Assembly (NCBI RefSeq): GCF_900108105.1
Contig: NZ_FNUR01000001.1
Coordinates: forward strand, 186,001 to 250,000
Direction: 5' to 3'
Length of the DNA: 64,000 nucleotides
Source: Butyrivibrio sp. Su6
Lineage (GTDB): Bacteria > Bacillota > Clostridia > Lachnospirales > Lachnospiraceae
In this document: positions 39,349 to 45,756 of the stretch, in pieces
How the letters are laid out: each line of letters opens with the position of its first letter
Position numbering within the stretch: position 1 is the first letter of the stretch
Translations under genes and position numbers: made by a program
Notes under the pieces: generated by a model
Databases searched by the model: none
What the model was told of the DNA's origin: nothing
Seen by the model: only the letters and a program-made list of their open reading frames with translations

Positions 39349-39438
39349 GTATTTAAAGGTTAAATTTAGCGATTCAACTCGCTGAAGAATATTATCAATA
39401 TTACAAAAATCATCTACATGGATTATAGGAGGAGAGAA

Positions 39439-40521
39439 ATGTCAAGAGTTTACAATTTTAGTGCTGGCCCGGCTGTTTTGCCAGAAGAAGTATTAAAACA
39501 GGCAGCTGCAGAGATGCTGGATTACAACGGATGTGGAATGTCTATCAATGAGATGAGCCATAGATCCAAGACTTTCGATAATGTTATCCAGACTGCAGAG
39601 CAGGACATCAGAGATCTTATGAATATTCCTGATAATTACAAGGTTCTCTTTTTACAAGGCGGTGCAAGTCAGCAGTTTGCAGCAGTTCCACTTAATCTTA
39701 TGAAAAATGGTAAGGCTGCATATATCATTACCGGTCAGTGGGCTAAAAAAGCATATCAGGAAGCACAGAAATATGGTGAAGCCATCGAAGTAGCTTCCAG
39801 TGCTGACAAGACTTTCTCTTATATTCCTGATTGTTCAGATCTTCCAATCCCGGAAGATGCAGATTACGTATATATCTGTGAGAATAATACTATTTATGGC
39901 ACAAAGTTTAAGACTTTGCCTAATACAAAAGGACATATCCTTGTTTCAGATGTTTCTTCATGCTTCTTATCAGAACCTGTGGATGTTACAAAATATGGAG
40001 TTATCTATGGCGGCGTTCAGAAGAACGTTGGACCTGCAGGCCTTGTAATAAGCATCATTAGAGAAGACCTTATTACAGATGATGTTCCCGTTTATACTCC
40101 TACAATGCTTAAGTGGAAGACTCAGGCAGACAATGGCTCTTTATATAATACTCCGAACTGCTGGAGCATTTACATGTGCGGGCTTGTATTTAAATGGCTC
40201 AAAGCCCAGGGCGGTCTTGAAGAGATGAAGAAGAGAAATGAAGAAAAGGCTGCTGTTTTGTATGATTACCTTGATCAGAGCAAAATGTTCAAAGGTACAG
40301 TTCGCAAGGAAGATCGTTCTCTTATGAATGTTCCTTTCATCACAGACAGCGATGAGCTTAACGCAGAATTTATTGCAGAAGCTACAAAGGCTGGATTTGT
40401 GAGCCTTAAGGGGCATAGAACTGTTGGTGGTATGAGAGCAAGTATCTACAATGCAATGCCTATTGAAGGTGTTAAGAAACTTGTTGAATTCATGGATAAG
40501 TTTGAAAAGGAGAGAGCGTGA
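39439..40521 (+). CDS. serC: Phosphoserine aminotransferase
   Basis: A 360-residue PLP enzyme that converts 3-phosphohydroxypyruvate and glutamate to phosphoserine. Family marks: VYNFSAGPAVLPEEVLKQAA at the start, FLQGGASQQFAAVP, DVSSCFLSEPVDVTKYGVIY and the PLP lysine in GGVQKNVGPAG, and GHRTVGGMRASIYNAMP at the end. I start at the ATG preceded by AGGAGGAGAG. It is followed immediately by serA, whose SD lies inside its last codons. Confidence 0.97.
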   Translation: MSRVYNFSAGPAVLPEEVLKQAAAEMLDYNGCGMSINEMSHRSKTFDNVIQTAEQDIRDLMNIPDNYKVLFLQGGASQQFAAVPLNLMKNGKAAYIITGQWAKKAYQEAQKYGEAIEVASSADKTFSYIPDCSDLPIPEDADYVYICENNTIYGTKFKTLPNTKGHILVSDVSSCFLSEPVDVTKYGVIYGGVQKNVGPAGLVISIIREDLITDDVPVYTPTMLKWKTQADNGSLYNTPNCWSIYMCGLVFKWLKAQGGLEEMKKRNEEKAAVLYDYLDQSKMFKGTVRKEDRSLMNVPFITDSDELNAEFIAEATKAGFVSLKGHRTVGGMRASIYNAMPIEGVKKLVEFMDKFEKERA

Positions 40522-40523
40522 TC

Positions 40524-41693
40524 ATGTACAAATACAAGTGTTTGAATCCTATTGCTAAGATCGGACTTAATAATTTTACTGATAAATATGAAGCTGTTGA
40601 CAATGTTGATGACGCAGAAGGCATTCTTGTAAGAAGTGCCAACATGCTGGAAATGGAGTTTTCCGATAATCTTCTTGCCATTGCAAGAGCAGGTGCAGGC
40701 GTAAACAATATTCCTTTAGACAGATGTGCTGAGGAAGGAATCGTTGTATTTAATACTCCGGGTGCCAATGCTAATGGCGTTAAAGAGATGGTACTTGCAG
40801 CTATGCTCATTGCTTCAAGAGATATCATCGGAGGAACTGAGTGGGTCAAGGCGAATGCCGGAGATCCTGATATTGCAAAGCTTACAGAGAAATCAAAAAA
40901 GAAATTTGCAGGAACTGAAATTTTTGGCAAAAAGCTTGGTATCATCGGACTTGGTGCCATTGGCGTAAGAGTTGCCAATGCAGCAAGACAGCTTGGCATG
41001 GAAGTTTACGGCTATGATCCATATCTTTCAATTGATGCTGCATGGAGACTGTCATCAGATGTTAAGCACGTGACCAATGTAGATGATATCTATTCAAAGT
41101 GCGATATTATCACAGTTCATGTACCTGCTTTGGATTCTACAAAGGGTATGATCGGACAGGAAGCAATTGCTAAGATGAAGAAAGGCGTTATAATCCTTAA
41201 TCTTGCAAGAGACATCCTTTGTGATGAGGTTGCAATCCTGGCCGGCATTAATTCAGGTAAGATCAGAAAATATGTTACGGATTTCCCGAATCCTACAACA
41301 GCAGGACATGACGGCTGCATAGTAATTCCTCATCTTGGAGCTTCAACAGAGGAGTCTGAGGATAATTGTGCAGTTAAGGCTGTTCTTGAAATGAAGGATT
41401 TCCTTGAAAATGGAAATATCAACAATTCGGTTAACTTCCCTAACTGTGATATGGGAATTTGCAATAATCCTCGAATTGCAATTTATCACAAAAATGTTGC
41501 AAACATGATCAGCCAGTTTACAAAAGAAATTGGTGAGGCCGGATATAACATTTCGGATATGACAAATAAATCTCGCGGCGATTATGCTTATACTTTGATT
41601 GACCTTGAGGATGGAATTGAGGATGCTCTTGTAAGTAAACTTGAAAAAATCGATGGAGTTATCAGAGTAAGGGTTGTAAGAAAAGACGTTTAA
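40524..41693 (+). CDS. serA: D-3-phosphoglycerate dehydrogenase with C-terminal ACT domain
   Basis: A 389-residue NAD enzyme, first step of serine synthesis. The nucleotide fold begins GKKLGIIGLGAIGVRVANAA; substrate and catalytic residues lie in ARAGAGVNNIPLDRCAEEGI, NLARDILCDEVAI and the His motif VIPHLGASTEESEDNCA. The last 70 residues (NPRIAIYHKNVANMISQFTK) form an ACT-like regulatory domain, which commonly gives serine feedback. The ATG follows GGAGAG with 8 bases; a GTG two codons upstream overlaps the serC stop. Arg in the NLARD motif matches the short bacterial type. Confidence 0.95.
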   Translation: MYKYKCLNPIAKIGLNNFTDKYEAVDNVDDAEGILVRSANMLEMEFSDNLLAIARAGAGVNNIPLDRCAEEGIVVFNTPGANANGVKEMVLAAMLIASRDIIGGTEWVKANAGDPDIAKLTEKSKKKFAGTEIFGKKLGIIGLGAIGVRVANAARQLGMEVYGYDPYLSIDAAWRLSSDVKHVTNVDDIYSKCDIITVHVPALDSTKGMIGQEAIAKMKKGVIILNLARDILCDEVAILAGINSGKIRKYVTDFPNPTTAGHDGCIVIPHLGASTEESEDNCAVKAVLEMKDFLENGNINNSVNFPNCDMGICNNPRIAIYHKNVANMISQFTKEIGEAGYNISDMTNKSRGDYAYTLIDLEDGIEDALVSKLEKIDGVIRVRVVRKDV

Positions 41694-41712
41694 TAAGAAA
41701 ATGTATTATAAT

Positions 41713-41744
41713 ATCGGGTAGGAGTAAAATCCTACTCGATTTTA
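41713..41744 (+). terminator. Hairpin between serA and the DUF1015 gene
   Basis: ATCGGGTAGGA pairs with TCCTACTCGAT (11 bp, one G-T), loop GTAAAA, then TTTTAA. It lies in the 69-base gap and could reduce read-through into the downstream gene rather than end the operon. Confidence 0.6.
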
Positions 41745-41762
41745 ATATGCGGAGGAATAAAG

Positions 41763-43016
41763 ATGGCTGATATAAGACCATTTAGTGCAATAAGACCAAA
41801 TACAGACATTGTAAAAGAAAAGGCTGCACTGCCTTATGATGTTTATAACAGGGAAGAAGCTTATGAAGAAGTGATGAAGAATCCCAAGTCTTTTCTTGCA
41901 ATAGACAGACCTGAAACTCAGTTTTCTAAGGATCAGGATATGTATGCTCCTGAAGTATATGAAAAAGCCAGGGATATGCTAAGAGACCAAATTTCTGACG
42001 GGACTTTTATCAAGGATGAAGACAAATGCTTTTACATTTATGAGCAGACTTTCAAAGGCAGAACCCAAACGGGAATTGTTGCCTGCGCATCTATTGATGA
42101 TTATTTAAACAGCGTTATTAAAAAACATGAAAATACCAGAGCTGACAAGGAAGAAGACAGAATAAGACATGTCTATACCTGTGATGCCCAGACTGGTCCT
42201 ATTTTCCTTTGCTATAGAAAAAACAGGCTTTTATCTGAACTTGTTATGAAAATAAAGGAATGCGATGCGCCTGTTTATGACTTTGAATCTAAGGATGGTG
42301 TTGAGAACAGAGTCTGGGTCATCTCTGATGAGGAAGAAGTTAATACAATAAGCAGGATTTTTACGACCATAAATTCTATTTATATAGCTGATGGTCATCA
42401 TAGATGTGCTTCGGCTGTCAAAGTTGGTCTTATGAAGAGAAAAGAAGGTGAAGGAAAGGTAAGAGGAAAGCTTAAATCTGACTACTTTTTGTCAGTTCTT
42501 TTCCCTGATGATGAACTTGAAATAATGGACTACAACCGTGTTGTAAAGGACTTAAATGGCCTTTCTGAGGCTGAGTTCATGGAAAGGATTTCTGGGAAAT
42601 TTGACGTTAAAAAGGAAGATGCTCCTGTAAAACCTTCTTGCAAGGGAGAGTTTGGCATGTATCTTGATGGCAGTTGGTACAGACTCGATGCAAAAGAAAG
42701 CATAAAGTCCGCTGATCCTGTTGCGGGGCTTGATGTATCTATACTTCAAGATCATATTCTTTCACCTGTCCTTGGTATAGGTGATCCAAAAACTGATAAA
42801 AGAATTGATTTTATCGGTGGTATTAGAGGACTCTCAGAGATAGAGAAAAGATGCGGCAAGGACTGTAAAGTGGGCTTTTCCATGTATCCGACATCCATAT
42901 CGGAACTCTTTGCGGTTGCAGATGAAGGACTTCTCATGCCTCCTAAGTCAACATGGTTTGAACCTAAGCTCTTAAGTGGGTTATTTATTCATGATATCTG
43001 TGGTACAATTGTATAG
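41763..43016 (+). CDS. DUF1015 family protein
   Basis: A 417-residue cytosolic protein of the DUF1015 family. Typical parts are IRPFSAIRPNTDIV at the start, ALPYDVYNREEAYE, a central region with RHVYTCDAQTGPIFLCY, the hallmark IADGHHRCASAVKV at about 215-228, and FPDDELEIMDYNRVVKDLNG. The Asp-Gly-His-His-Arg motif resembles the DGxHR motif of ParB/sulfiredoxin-fold nucleotide-using enzymes, including a known free serine kinase, but that link is inference. Genes of this family often stand next to serC and serA in Clostridia, as here, so a role in serine or phosphoserine metabolism is suspected. AGGAGGAATAA-like GGAGGAATAAAG precedes the ATG. Confidence 0.85.
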   Translation: MADIRPFSAIRPNTDIVKEKAALPYDVYNREEAYEEVMKNPKSFLAIDRPETQFSKDQDMYAPEVYEKARDMLRDQISDGTFIKDEDKCFYIYEQTFKGRTQTGIVACASIDDYLNSVIKKHENTRADKEEDRIRHVYTCDAQTGPIFLCYRKNRLLSELVMKIKECDAPVYDFESKDGVENRVWVISDEEEVNTISRIFTTINSIYIADGHHRCASAVKVGLMKRKEGEGKVRGKLKSDYFLSVLFPDDELEIMDYNRVVKDLNGLSEAEFMERISGKFDVKKEDAPVKPSCKGEFGMYLDGSWYRLDAKESIKSADPVAGLDVSILQDHILSPVLGIGDPKTDKRIDFIGGIRGLSEIEKRCGKDCKVGFSMYPTSISELFAVADEGLLMPPKSTWFEPKLLSGLFIHDICGTIV

Positions 43017-43076: not shown

Positions 43077-45533
43077 ATGAATAGTAAGCTTTACAAGATG
43101 ATGAATTGGCCTGAGATTGAGGAAATTATCTATTCTGATGGCGACAATCCACACAGAATTCTGGGGGCTCATAAAGTTGGCTCAAATTATCTTATTCAGG
43201 CTTTTTATCCTGATGCAAAAGAGATAAGTGTTTTGGTTGAGAATACCAAAAAGACTTATCCTATGGAACTTGCAGATGAGGCGGGCTTTTATGCTGTTTT
43301 GGTTCCATACATCGAGAAGTTTAGATATAAACTCGTGATCACAGATGTTAATGGGGTAGAGACAACTGTAGATGATCCATATGCTTTTGGACCGTATATG
43401 GACAGAGAGGATTTTATAAAATTTGGCAGTGGTATACACTACCATATCTATGAAAAACTTGGCGCACATCCTATGAAGAGGGGAACTGTTCAGGGAACTC
43501 TTTTTGCTGTTTGGGCGCCTTCTGCTGCAAGAGTAAGCGTTATTGGTGATTTTAATAATTGGGATGGAAGAGTATGCCAGATGCATAGGCTTGACCCAAT
43601 TGGCGTATTTGAAATCTTTGTCCCAGGTGCTAAGGAAAATGATGGATATCAGTTTGAGATCAAGACCAGGAGCGGCCTTATCTTCAAGAGACCTGATCCA
43701 TATGCAATGCTTAGCCGCGGTGAGAATGGCATGATCTCTGTTATCAGTGAGAGAAAATCTATTGTCTGGAACGATTCCAAGTGGCTTGCACAGAGAAGAA
43801 AATTTGATCTTGATGAAGCACCACTTTCAATCTGCGAGATTTCTATCGATGCTTTTGCCGGAAGACATGAAGGCAGGAGTACAATCGAAGAAATCACTTC
43901 TGATATTCTCGAGTATGTACAGAATCATGGCTTTAACACTATTGAGCTTATGCCGGTAATGAAACATGTTCCGGGGCACTATTACCATATTCTGGATTTC
44001 TTTGCCCTTGATGATTCGAATGGCACACCGGAAGAGTTCATGAAATTTATTGACACATGCCATGCTGCAGGTATAAGAATTATCCTTGACTGGGTTCCTA
44101 CATTTTTCCCTAAGTCATCTTGCGGCCTTAGTAGTTTTGATGGAAAGTGCCTCTATGAGTATGAGGACCCAAGGATTGGCGTTCATCCAAAGTCAGGGGA
44201 TCTGATATTTGATTATGGCAGAAAGGAAGTTACTAACTTCCTTATTTCCAATGCTTTGTACTGGATTGAAAATTACCACATAGATGGCCTTAGAACTTCT
44301 GACATTTCAAGGATTCTTTATCTTGATTATGACAGGAAACCTGGTGAATGGATTGCCAATATATATGGCGGTAATGAGAACCTGGAAGCACTTGAATTTC
44401 TTAAACAGCTCACAACTGTCATTCATAAAAACAATCCGGGGGTCGTTCTCCTTACAAAAGAGACAGCTTGTTGGCCACAGGTTACTGATGCAGTAGATGA
44501 TGGTGGCCTTGGATTTGATTATAAATGGAATAACGGCTGGACAAGGGACTTCCTTTCCTATATGCAAAATGATCCGCTCTTTAGGGCTGGTCACCATGAT
44601 GAGCTTACTTTCAGCATTATTTACAGCTATACTGAAAGATTTGTTCTTGGATTCACACATGAAGAGCTTGAAAAAGGTCTTGAGGGGCTTTATTATCTGA
44701 TGCCTGGTGATTCAGTACAAAAGATGGCTAATCTGCGCCTTGCAATCAGCTACATGATGGTTCATCCAGGCAGAAAGCATTTATATATGGAGCCTGATGC
44801 CCTTACTGTAGATCAGTCTGTATTTGTTGAAAATATGCTCTCTAAACTTAATAAGCTCTATTATGATCATGATGCTCTTCATCAGCTTGACAGCTCTGAT
44901 GGTGGCTTTGAATGGATCAATAACATGGCTACTGATGAATGTATGCTTTCATTTGTAAGAAAAAGCAATGATTCAAAAGAGATGCTTCTTGTAGTGGCTA
45001 ATATGGCCGGCGTTGAAAGAACAGTTGAAATTGGCGTTCCTGCTGATGGCAGATACACTGAAATATTCAATAGTGATGACCTTTCCTATGGCGGAACTGG
45101 CGTTTTGAATGAGGGTAAAAAGGAAGCAAGAAGAAAAGAAGTGGATGGACGCGACTATTCTCTGTCTATTAAGATTGGTGCGGTATCTCTTTGTATCTTT
45201 AGCTATGTCCCTTATACTGAGCAGGAGAAAAAGATCCGTGCGATAAAGGAAGAAGAGGAAATCAAGAAAGAGGCCGAAAGACAGGAAAAACTTGCTGCTC
45301 TTAAGGAAATGCAGAGCAAAGAGGAAGAGAGAATCTTAAAAGAGCTCAAAGAAAAATATGAAAGAGAACTCTTAGAGCAGGAGAAGGCAATAGAAGAAAA
45401 GTATGAAAAGATTGAAGAAGAGAGAATTTCTACTATTGTATCGGCTGATGCCATAAAGAGTCTTTCTTCAAAGAAAAAGACAGGTTCAAAAGAATCTAAA
45501 AAGACTACAACTAAAACTTCTAAAAAGAAATAA
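43077..45533 (+). CDS. GlgB-like protein lacking branching-enzyme catalytic residues (probable pseudoenzyme)
   Basis: An 818-residue protein that aligns with glycogen branching enzyme from the N-terminal CBM48-like domains (NPHRILGAHK, then FAVWAPSAARVSVIGDFNNW) through the GH13 barrel. The barrel framework is well kept (EYEDPRIGVHP, NFLISNALYWIENYHIDGLR), but the active site is not: the nucleophile Asp of GLRVDAV is Ser408 (GLRTSDI), the acid/base Glu of AEES is Lys461 (LLTKETACWP), the third Asp of SHDE is Glu529 (THEE), and the region I His is Phe343 (DWVPTFFP). From about residue 725 a Lys/Glu coiled coil and a Lys/Ser/Thr tail follow, absent from normal GlgB. So it likely binds glycogen or another protein without making branches. 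The start follows GGGGAGGGAG. It is 60 bases after the DUF1015 gene. Confidence 0.85.
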   Translation: MNSKLYKMMNWPEIEEIIYSDGDNPHRILGAHKVGSNYLIQAFYPDAKEISVLVENTKKTYPMELADEAGFYAVLVPYIEKFRYKLVITDVNGVETTVDDPYAFGPYMDREDFIKFGSGIHYHIYEKLGAHPMKRGTVQGTLFAVWAPSAARVSVIGDFNNWDGRVCQMHRLDPIGVFEIFVPGAKENDGYQFEIKTRSGLIFKRPDPYAMLSRGENGMISVISERKSIVWNDSKWLAQRRKFDLDEAPLSICEISIDAFAGRHEGRSTIEEITSDILEYVQNHGFNTIELMPVMKHVPGHYYHILDFFALDDSNGTPEEFMKFIDTCHAAGIRIILDWVPTFFPKSSCGLSSFDGKCLYEYEDPRIGVHPKSGDLIFDYGRKEVTNFLISNALYWIENYHIDGLRTSDISRILYLDYDRKPGEWIANIYGGNENLEALEFLKQLTTVIHKNNPGVVLLTKETACWPQVTDAVDDGGLGFDYKWNNGWTRDFLSYMQNDPLFRAGHHDELTFSIIYSYTERFVLGFTHEELEKGLEGLYYLMPGDSVQKMANLRLAISYMMVHPGRKHLYMEPDALTVDQSVFVENMLSKLNKLYYDHDALHQLDSSDGGFEWINNMATDECMLSFVRKSNDSKEMLLVVANMAGVERTVEIGVPADGRYTEIFNSDDLSYGGTGVLNEGKKEARRKEVDGRDYSLSIKIGAVSLCIFSYVPYTEQEKKIRAIKEEEEIKKEAERQEKLAALKEMQSKEEERILKELKEKYERELLEQEKAIEEKYEKIEEERISTIVSADAIKSLSSKKKTGSKESKKTTTKTSKKK

Positions 45534-45537
45534 ATAA

Positions 45538-45582
45538 TAAAAGCTGTGAATGCAAGCAATGCTTGATTTCACAGCTTTTTTG
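45538..45582 (+). terminator. Terminator after the GlgB-like gene
   Basis: AAAAGCTGTGAA and TTCACAGCTTTTTT form a stem of 12 or more base pairs; the loop contains a second small inverted repeat (GCAAGCAATGCTTG). The T-run is clear. The facing tRNA gene ends just beyond. Confidence 0.85.
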
Positions 45583-45594
45583 CAAAAAAAATAA

Positions 45595-45667
45595 AGCTGG
45601 AAATGGGACTTGAACCCACGACCTACTGATTACGAATCAGTTGCGCTACCAACTGCGCTATTCCAGC
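45595..45667 (-). tRNA. tRNA-Thr (anticodon CGT)
   Basis: The minus strand folds as a standard 73-base tRNA: acceptor GCTGGAA with TTCCAGC, D arm GCGC/GCGC around AGTTGGTA, anticodon stem ACTGA/TCAGT with loop TTCGTAA giving anticodon CGT (codon ACG), and T arm GTGGG/CCCAT with TTCAAGT. The discriminator is T and the CCA end is not encoded. It lies between the GlgB-like gene and apt, reading toward the former. Confidence 0.93.
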
Positions 45668-45756
45668 CTGCCACAAGGCACAAATTAAATTATACATTCC
45701 ACAGCATGGATTTACAAGTAAAATTCAGAATTAATTATACTAATGTGCAGTATTTG

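Follow-up and report, generated by a model that had tools for sequence, protein, structure and literature searches.

The window analysed here is a 64,000-nucleotide stretch of the Butyrivibrio sp. Su6 genome (contig NZ_FNUR01000001.1, positions 186,001 to 250,000, forward strand). It carries a gene for a long protein of the glycogen branching enzyme type (GlgB), P0001. Judged from its sequence, P0001 is very probably a conserved pseudoenzyme with no branching activity. Its catalytic residues are replaced in all Butyrivibrio copies found, its reading frame is kept under selection, and a second, shorter GlgB with an intact active site is encoded elsewhere in the genome. Translation starts from an ATG at 43077, preceded by AGGGAG, and the stop codon ends at 45533. 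The domain order is N1, CBM48, GH13 barrel and C domain, all scoring above the Pfam cut-offs (PF22019, PF02922, PF00128, PF02806), and the predicted fold matches solved branching enzymes. P0001 scored 597.8 bits against the curated GlgB model TIGR01515 (NCBI cut-off 463.95) and is therefore labelled a branching enzyme by automatic pipelines.

Replacement of the catalytic residues in Butyrivibrio

Catalytic positions in P0001 were assigned by alignment to solved GlgB. This placed Phe343, Ser408, Lys461 and Glu529 at the positions of the region I His, the nucleophile Asp, the acid/base Glu and the third Asp, respectively, as a preliminary description of this DNA had proposed; its coordinates, frame and residue numbering were likewise correct. 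Replacement of these four residues abolishes activity in GH13 enzymes, and the loss of activity in P0001 follows from this established chemistry. Two deletions at the active site had escaped the preliminary description, namely a loop shortened by 16 alignment columns past residue 580 and the absence of Trp-Gly past residue 302. Asp338, Arg406 and His528 are retained in P0001, with Arg406 present in 75/75 Butyrivibrio copies. Intact relatives share 13 conserved Trp positions; at 12 of these the Butyrivibrio clade still mostly has Trp, Trp373 being lost, and its deletions removed three further Trp columns.

A long GlgB was found in 75 of the 79 Butyrivibrio genomes scanned, the four genomes lacking it (G043, G059, G072 and G074) being 60 to 72% complete. 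All 75 copies were read, and both the nucleophile Asp and the acid/base Glu were gone from every one. Asp409, Glu462 and either Lys or Arg at 461 were fixed instead (each 75/75). Residues 461 and 529 were paired as Lys-Glu (69 copies), Arg-Asp (5) or Arg-Glu (1). Among 120 listed homologues, Phe343, Asp409, Lys461, Glu462 and Glu529 each occurred in 120/120, and position 408 was occupied by Ser (110), Ala (7), Thr (2) or Pro (1), never by Asp. The close relatives thus share the substitutions that the preliminary description had reported for this one protein.

It is highly improbable that P0001 still branches glucan by means of catalytic residues shifted to other positions. It does pass TIGR01515, and passages of PMC5716241 give both glgB1 (663 residues) and glgB2 (824 residues) of Butyrivibrio hungatei MB2003 as branching enzymes, with no comment in those passages on the catalytic residues of either. 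However, the nucleophile, the acid/base, the third Asp and the region I His are all replaced in P0001.

Purifying selection and a shift in constraint

The ratio of nonsynonymous to synonymous substitution rates (dN/dS) of the dead GlgB core was 0.026, 0.025, 0.044 and 0.073 in four pairs of rising distance, compared to 0.013 and 0.015 in the two closest pairs of the intact short GlgB, all ratios being rough given synonymous distances near saturation (dS 0.9 to 2.8). The dead copy is therefore somewhat less constrained than the short one, and its low ratios indicate that it is not decaying. Open frames were found in all 75 copies, one of them truncated by a contig end.

Constraint was then compared between pairs of equal overall identity (50-60%; 2962 intact and 406 Butyrivibrio pairs, which are not independent). 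At this matched divergence, identity at the active-site rim was 0.80 in intact relatives and 0.52 in the Butyrivibrio clade, whereas identity of the N1 domain was 0.39 and 0.57, respectively. Identity of CBM48 was about equal (0.64 and 0.63). In the Butyrivibrio clade the rim has thus lost constraint and the N1 domain has gained it. The intact relatives have 217 conserved sites, of which 122 were kept, 13 had switched to a different fixed residue and 82 were relaxed.

We rejected decay of a gene made redundant once the short GlgB took over, a reading to which we give hardly any probability. Long GlgBs of Butyrivibrio do evolve faster than their intact relatives, and the 82 relaxed sites speak for decay. 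Against this stand the open frames, the dN/dS range of 0.025 to 0.073, the newly fixed residues and the raised constraint on N1. The earlier proposal that an intact frame with lost catalysis reflects selection for another role is supported by substitutions shared by 75/75 orthologues and by the low dN/dS. That other role is improbably a new catalytic activity using the shifted acids Asp409, Glu462 and Glu529. All three acids lie in or beside old catalytic positions and two are invariant, but a basic residue occupies the acid/base position in 75/75 copies, and the donor-path loop and Trp residues are gone. In addition, identity of the rim has fallen to the level found elsewhere in the barrel (0.52 versus 0.57 at matched divergence), unlike that of an active site.

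Repeated loss of catalysis among relatives

Across the family Lachnospiraceae, 311 of 397 genomes had a match at E 1e-140 or better. Beyond Butyrivibrio, we examined 144 distinct long GlgBs, representing the higher-scoring part of the family match list. All seven tracked residues were present in 133 of these and 11 were degenerate, with replacements differing by row. Eleven further degenerate rows were added from named contigs, giving 22 in total. A tree of 194 rows, from which active-site columns were excluded, required nine changes of state; a 75-row tree under a mixture model, made by quick search only, also required nine, and its starred branches force at least seven. The Butyrivibrio long GlgBs formed one clade (SH-like approximate likelihood ratio test support 100), which some degenerate rows joined with weaker support (81 to 89). 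The grouping of L193, L209, L216, L067 and L145 with Butyrivibrio in both trees may reflect long-branch attraction. P0001 is thus an orthologue of active long GlgBs, in a family where catalysis was lost repeatedly.

Another intact GlgB was present in 11/11 of the degenerate family genomes. Among 21 genomes with high-scoring intact long GlgBs, 19 had at least two GlgB-type genes, and in the two single-gene genomes the long GlgB was intact. This fits the loss of GlgB catalysis only where another GlgB supplies it; catalysis would have been free to be lost because the second GlgB supplies branching.

A second degenerate lineage (L144, L146, L147 and L247), forming a clade with 100% support, retains the nucleophile Asp, but its acid/base residue is replaced by Gln and its third Asp by Arg. 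Single long GlgBs with other sets of replaced residues were L249 (G235), L251 (G087), L232 (G303), L221 (G416) and L211 (G377).

The intact short GlgB and a putative accessory role

The preliminary description had advised looking for a second, intact glgB, and the Su6 genome encodes one. L009 (C18:21054-22907, 658 residues) is catalytically intact and is the only other GlgB above cut-off. The short GlgB was intact in 20/20 Butyrivibrio genomes read that also carry the dead copy, and in three read genomes without it (L369 to L371); neither gene was found in G059. In the short GlgB, no separate N1 domain is present. A passage of PMC9960391 cites work by others characterising a branching enzyme from Butyrivibrio fibrisolvens, which may be of the long or the short type. 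Part of PMC10395257, a review of glycogen genes in the gut, reports that genomes carry several homologues of glgB.

Our preferred reading, a tentative one with close to an even chance, is that the dead long GlgB is a non-catalytic accessory subunit which would bind glycogen and provide the intact short GlgB with its N1 and CBM48 domains. It retains those parts of GlgB that are thought to bind glucan outside the active site, and would supply the cell with the N1 domain that the active short enzyme is missing. The N1 domain is associated with short transferred chains in a passage of PMC6339891. A salt bridge between Lys461 and Glu529 (or between Arg461 and Asp529), with Asp409 and Glu462 alongside, would shut the pocket, and glucan could be bound by the remaining surfaces, namely N1, CBM48 (through Trp146 and Trp162) and the C domain. 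The Glu/Lys helix and basic tail would tether the protein to a partner or charged surface, and the effect might be on the length or placement of branches made by the short GlgB. Within CBM48, Trp146 was present in 62/62 and Trp162 in 58/62, otherwise Phe. When the glucan sites of the Escherichia coli enzyme were mapped onto P0001, site IV alone could be placed; its Trp159, described in part of PMC10254366, would correspond to Trp162 through an offset of 3. The preliminary description had listed glycogen binding among the possible roles of a protein kept for another function. The latter part stood, and findings that it did not contain (orthology to active long GlgBs, repeated loss and the shift of constraint to N1) favour an accessory subunit over plain glycogen binding.

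Several observations weigh against this reading and the genus-wide pattern behind it, in addition to the roughness of the dN/dS ratios. The shared substitutions were inherited from one ancestor, so the 75 copies are not 75 events. Of the 14 Butyrivibrio sequences in the tree, those of the Arg461 type form a single clade, and the switch to Arg461/Asp529 is likewise limited to it, so that covariation between 461 and 529, being unrepeated, is suggestive. The Butyrivibrio clade is fast-evolving, with a median root-to-tip distance of 3.16 versus 1.88 in intact relatives. Without Trp373 and the three deleted Trp residues, glucan binding on the donor-chain side should be weakened, and the retention of Asp338, Arg406 and His528 (71/75) means that ligand binding in the pocket may persist. 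Finally, the Butyrivibrio substitutions were not found in other degenerate lineages, and 11 of the 22 degenerate rows have tails of fewer than 15 residues, so one mechanism need not fit all.

Gene neighbourhood

The window has overlapping serC and serA genes, with a terminator-like hairpin separating serA from the DUF1015 gene, and glgB begins 60 bases past DUF1015. The DUF1015 gene was within 300 bp upstream of glgB in 49 of the 60 Butyrivibrio loci with enough flank, in 13/19 loci of a second, divergent Butyrivibrio set (overlapping in species with the first), in 50/135 intact relatives and in 8/17 other degenerate ones. None of the three neighbours was found at 67/135 intact and 11/60 Butyrivibrio loci. 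These shared neighbours place the degenerate and many of the intact glgB genes at one ancestral position, serC-serA-DUF1015-glgB. A DUF1015 protein was present in 9 of the 11 genomes sampled in the order. In the open-licence literature searched, two papers mentioned DUF1015 and none was found for it in combination with 'serine kinase'.

The case for a role in the serine pathway, deduced from neighbourhood alone, is weakened because these genes also adjoin intact GlgBs and are missing at some Butyrivibrio loci. A related explanation is that the rebuilt pocket binds a small ligand and acts as a sensor tying carbon storage to serine synthesis via serC, serA and DUF1015. We consider this unlikely, although less so than a new catalytic activity. 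Residues in the pocket were newly fixed rather than merely lost, 13 sites switched from one conserved residue to another, and linkage to DUF1015 was found at most Butyrivibrio loci. However, this linkage was missing from 11/60 loci and from 6/19 of the divergent set, and its occurrence at intact GlgBs (50/135) makes it older than the loss of catalysis. DUF1015 is without known function in Pfam, and the hairpin upstream of it speaks against assuming a single transcript.

The accessory-subunit reading can be extended to the family, in a form that is possible but distinctly more doubtful. Lachnospiraceae may repeatedly have converted one GlgB, often beside serA and DUF1015, to a subunit without catalysis. 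In Butyrivibrio, the pocket would have been rebuilt (Asp409, Lys/Arg461, Glu462, Glu/Asp529) and N1 would act in trans to set the pattern of branches that the short GlgB introduces.

The C-terminal tail

P0001 extends 107 residues past residue 711, confirming the charged C-terminal tail of the preliminary description. Tails of at least 40 residues were found in 74/75 Butyrivibrio copies, the exception being truncated by a contig end. Net charge over the first 78 residues is slightly negative (median -4, n = 74); the remainder is basic (median +11, n = 72), with 1/72 not positive. Tails of at least 40 residues, rich in Lys, Ala and Glu, also occurred in 94/141 catalytically intact relatives. 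The tail is therefore general to the long GlgBs of the family, and its proposed addition as a novelty alongside the loss of catalysis was rejected. Nor was a coiled coil supported, since 20% of 500 shuffled sequences equalled the hydrophobic periodicity of the helix; a single Glu/Lys helix is the likelier structure.

Relation to known systems

Among the papers listed in searches of the open-licence literature, none described a non-catalytic GlgB like this one. P0001 is a real conserved pseudoenzyme whose evolutionary pattern is clear and unusual, and an inactive paralogue beside an active enzyme is already known as a kind. In domains, fold and family score, P0001 equals the Type 1 branching enzyme (GlgB with N1, GH13_9), whose Lachnospiraceae orthologues are mostly intact (133/144 read), but it lacks the catalytic residues and has a shorter active-site loop. 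The amino-acid transporter heavy chains rBAT and 4F2hc are GH13-like barrels that have no glycosidase activity and act as partner subunits; unlike P0001, they are animal membrane proteins outside the branching-enzyme subfamily.

The plant isoamylase ISA2 (GH13_11), as described in passages of PMC12510319, is likewise a non-catalytic GH13 paralogue with CBM48, barrel and C domain, in which at least four of five conserved residues vary, including the nucleophile, and which evolves faster and has an active paralogue alongside. The same passages give it an extra N-terminal beta-sandwich, whereas the extra N1 of P0001 was inherited from active GlgB. ISA2 belongs to a plant debranching family and its binding to ISA1 is demonstrated, whereas P0001 belongs to a bacterial branching-enzyme family and has a proposed partner. 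P0001 lies outside GH13_11, as it scores with GlgB models and no isoamylase was among the models listed above cut-off. GlgD of Firmicutes, the phylum to which Butyrivibrio belongs, is in an extract of PMC9093745 also an inactive paralogue of a glycogen-synthesis enzyme beside an active one, GlgC. It differs in fold and step (ADP-glucose pyrophosphorylase) and in a heterotetramer demonstrated by others; P0001 has no such fold, its Pfam domains being those of GlgB. A bacterial branching domain is also reported inactive in the GlgA-GlgB fusion of Criblamydiaceae and Waddliaceae (part of PMC11046441), there through fusion and rearrangement, whereas P0001 is free-standing with point replacements fixed genus-wide.

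Annotation assigns two branching enzymes to the genomes of this group. One of the two is most likely no enzyme, and models of rumen and gut glycogen metabolism would thus overcount activity. A dead, N1-bearing and an active, N1-less GlgB in separate genes would allow the debated role of N1 to be probed in trans. Since catalysis was lost more than once and sister genera keep intact versions, these orthologues offer a natural series from enzyme to subunit that is comparable to ISA2 and available in culturable bacteria.

Features of the window and other glycogen genes

Table 1 Coordinates of P0001, its domains and key residues, and neighbouring features in the window. Residue counts refer to the 75 Butyrivibrio copies.
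Feature	Position	Strand	Remarks
serC, serA and DUF1015 genes, upstream of glgB	39418..43016	+	Cluster kept in many relatives
Terminator-like hairpin between serA and DUF1015	41713..41740		
DUF1015 protein	41763..43016		Beside serA and glgB in many Lachnospiraceae
P0001, long GlgB-type protein without catalytic residues	43077..45533	+	818 residues
GlgB_N (N1) domain, residues 11-102	43107..43382	+	Pfam PF22019, 107.9 bits; constraint raised in Butyrivibrio clade
CBM48, residues 127-210	43455..43706	+	Pfam
GH13 barrel, residues 271-610	43887..44906	+	Predicted fold intact
Phe343 at region I His position	44103..44105	+	F62 Y7 T4 L1 S1
Ser408 at nucleophile Asp position, Asp409 fixed	44298..44303	+	408: S47 A11 P10 T7; 409: Asp 75/75
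Lys461 at acid/base Glu position, Glu462 fixed	44457..44462	+	461: K69 R6; 462: Glu 75/75
His528 retained, Glu529 at third Asp position	44658..44663	+	528: H 71/75; 529: E70 D5
Shortened active-site loop	44787..44819	+	16 alignment columns deleted past residue 580
C-terminal all-beta (alpha-amylase C) domain, residues 613-709	44913..45203	+	Pfam PF02806
Glu/Lys-rich helix, residues 715-789	45219..45443	+	Predicted single long helix
Basic tail, residues 790-818	45444..45530	+	Predicted disordered, net charge +9
Likely terminator, 3' of P0001 stop	45542..45582	+	Inverted repeat then T run; read from sequence, absent from pattern-scan list
tRNA-Thr (anticodon CGT)	45594..45668	-	Between glgB and apt

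A scan against an anti-phage library gave a weak GlgB-like match only (PDLC01097, 102.9 bits). Elsewhere in the Su6 genome we found one GlgA and two GlgD-type genes above cut-off, each adjoining a lower-scoring second member that is likely GlgC (adjacent GlgC/GlgD-type pairs at C6:65236-67472 and C2:56224-58573). Several family genomes also carry a third, short GlgB-like type (L366 and L372 to L376) with AED for AEE and intact tracked catalytic residues.
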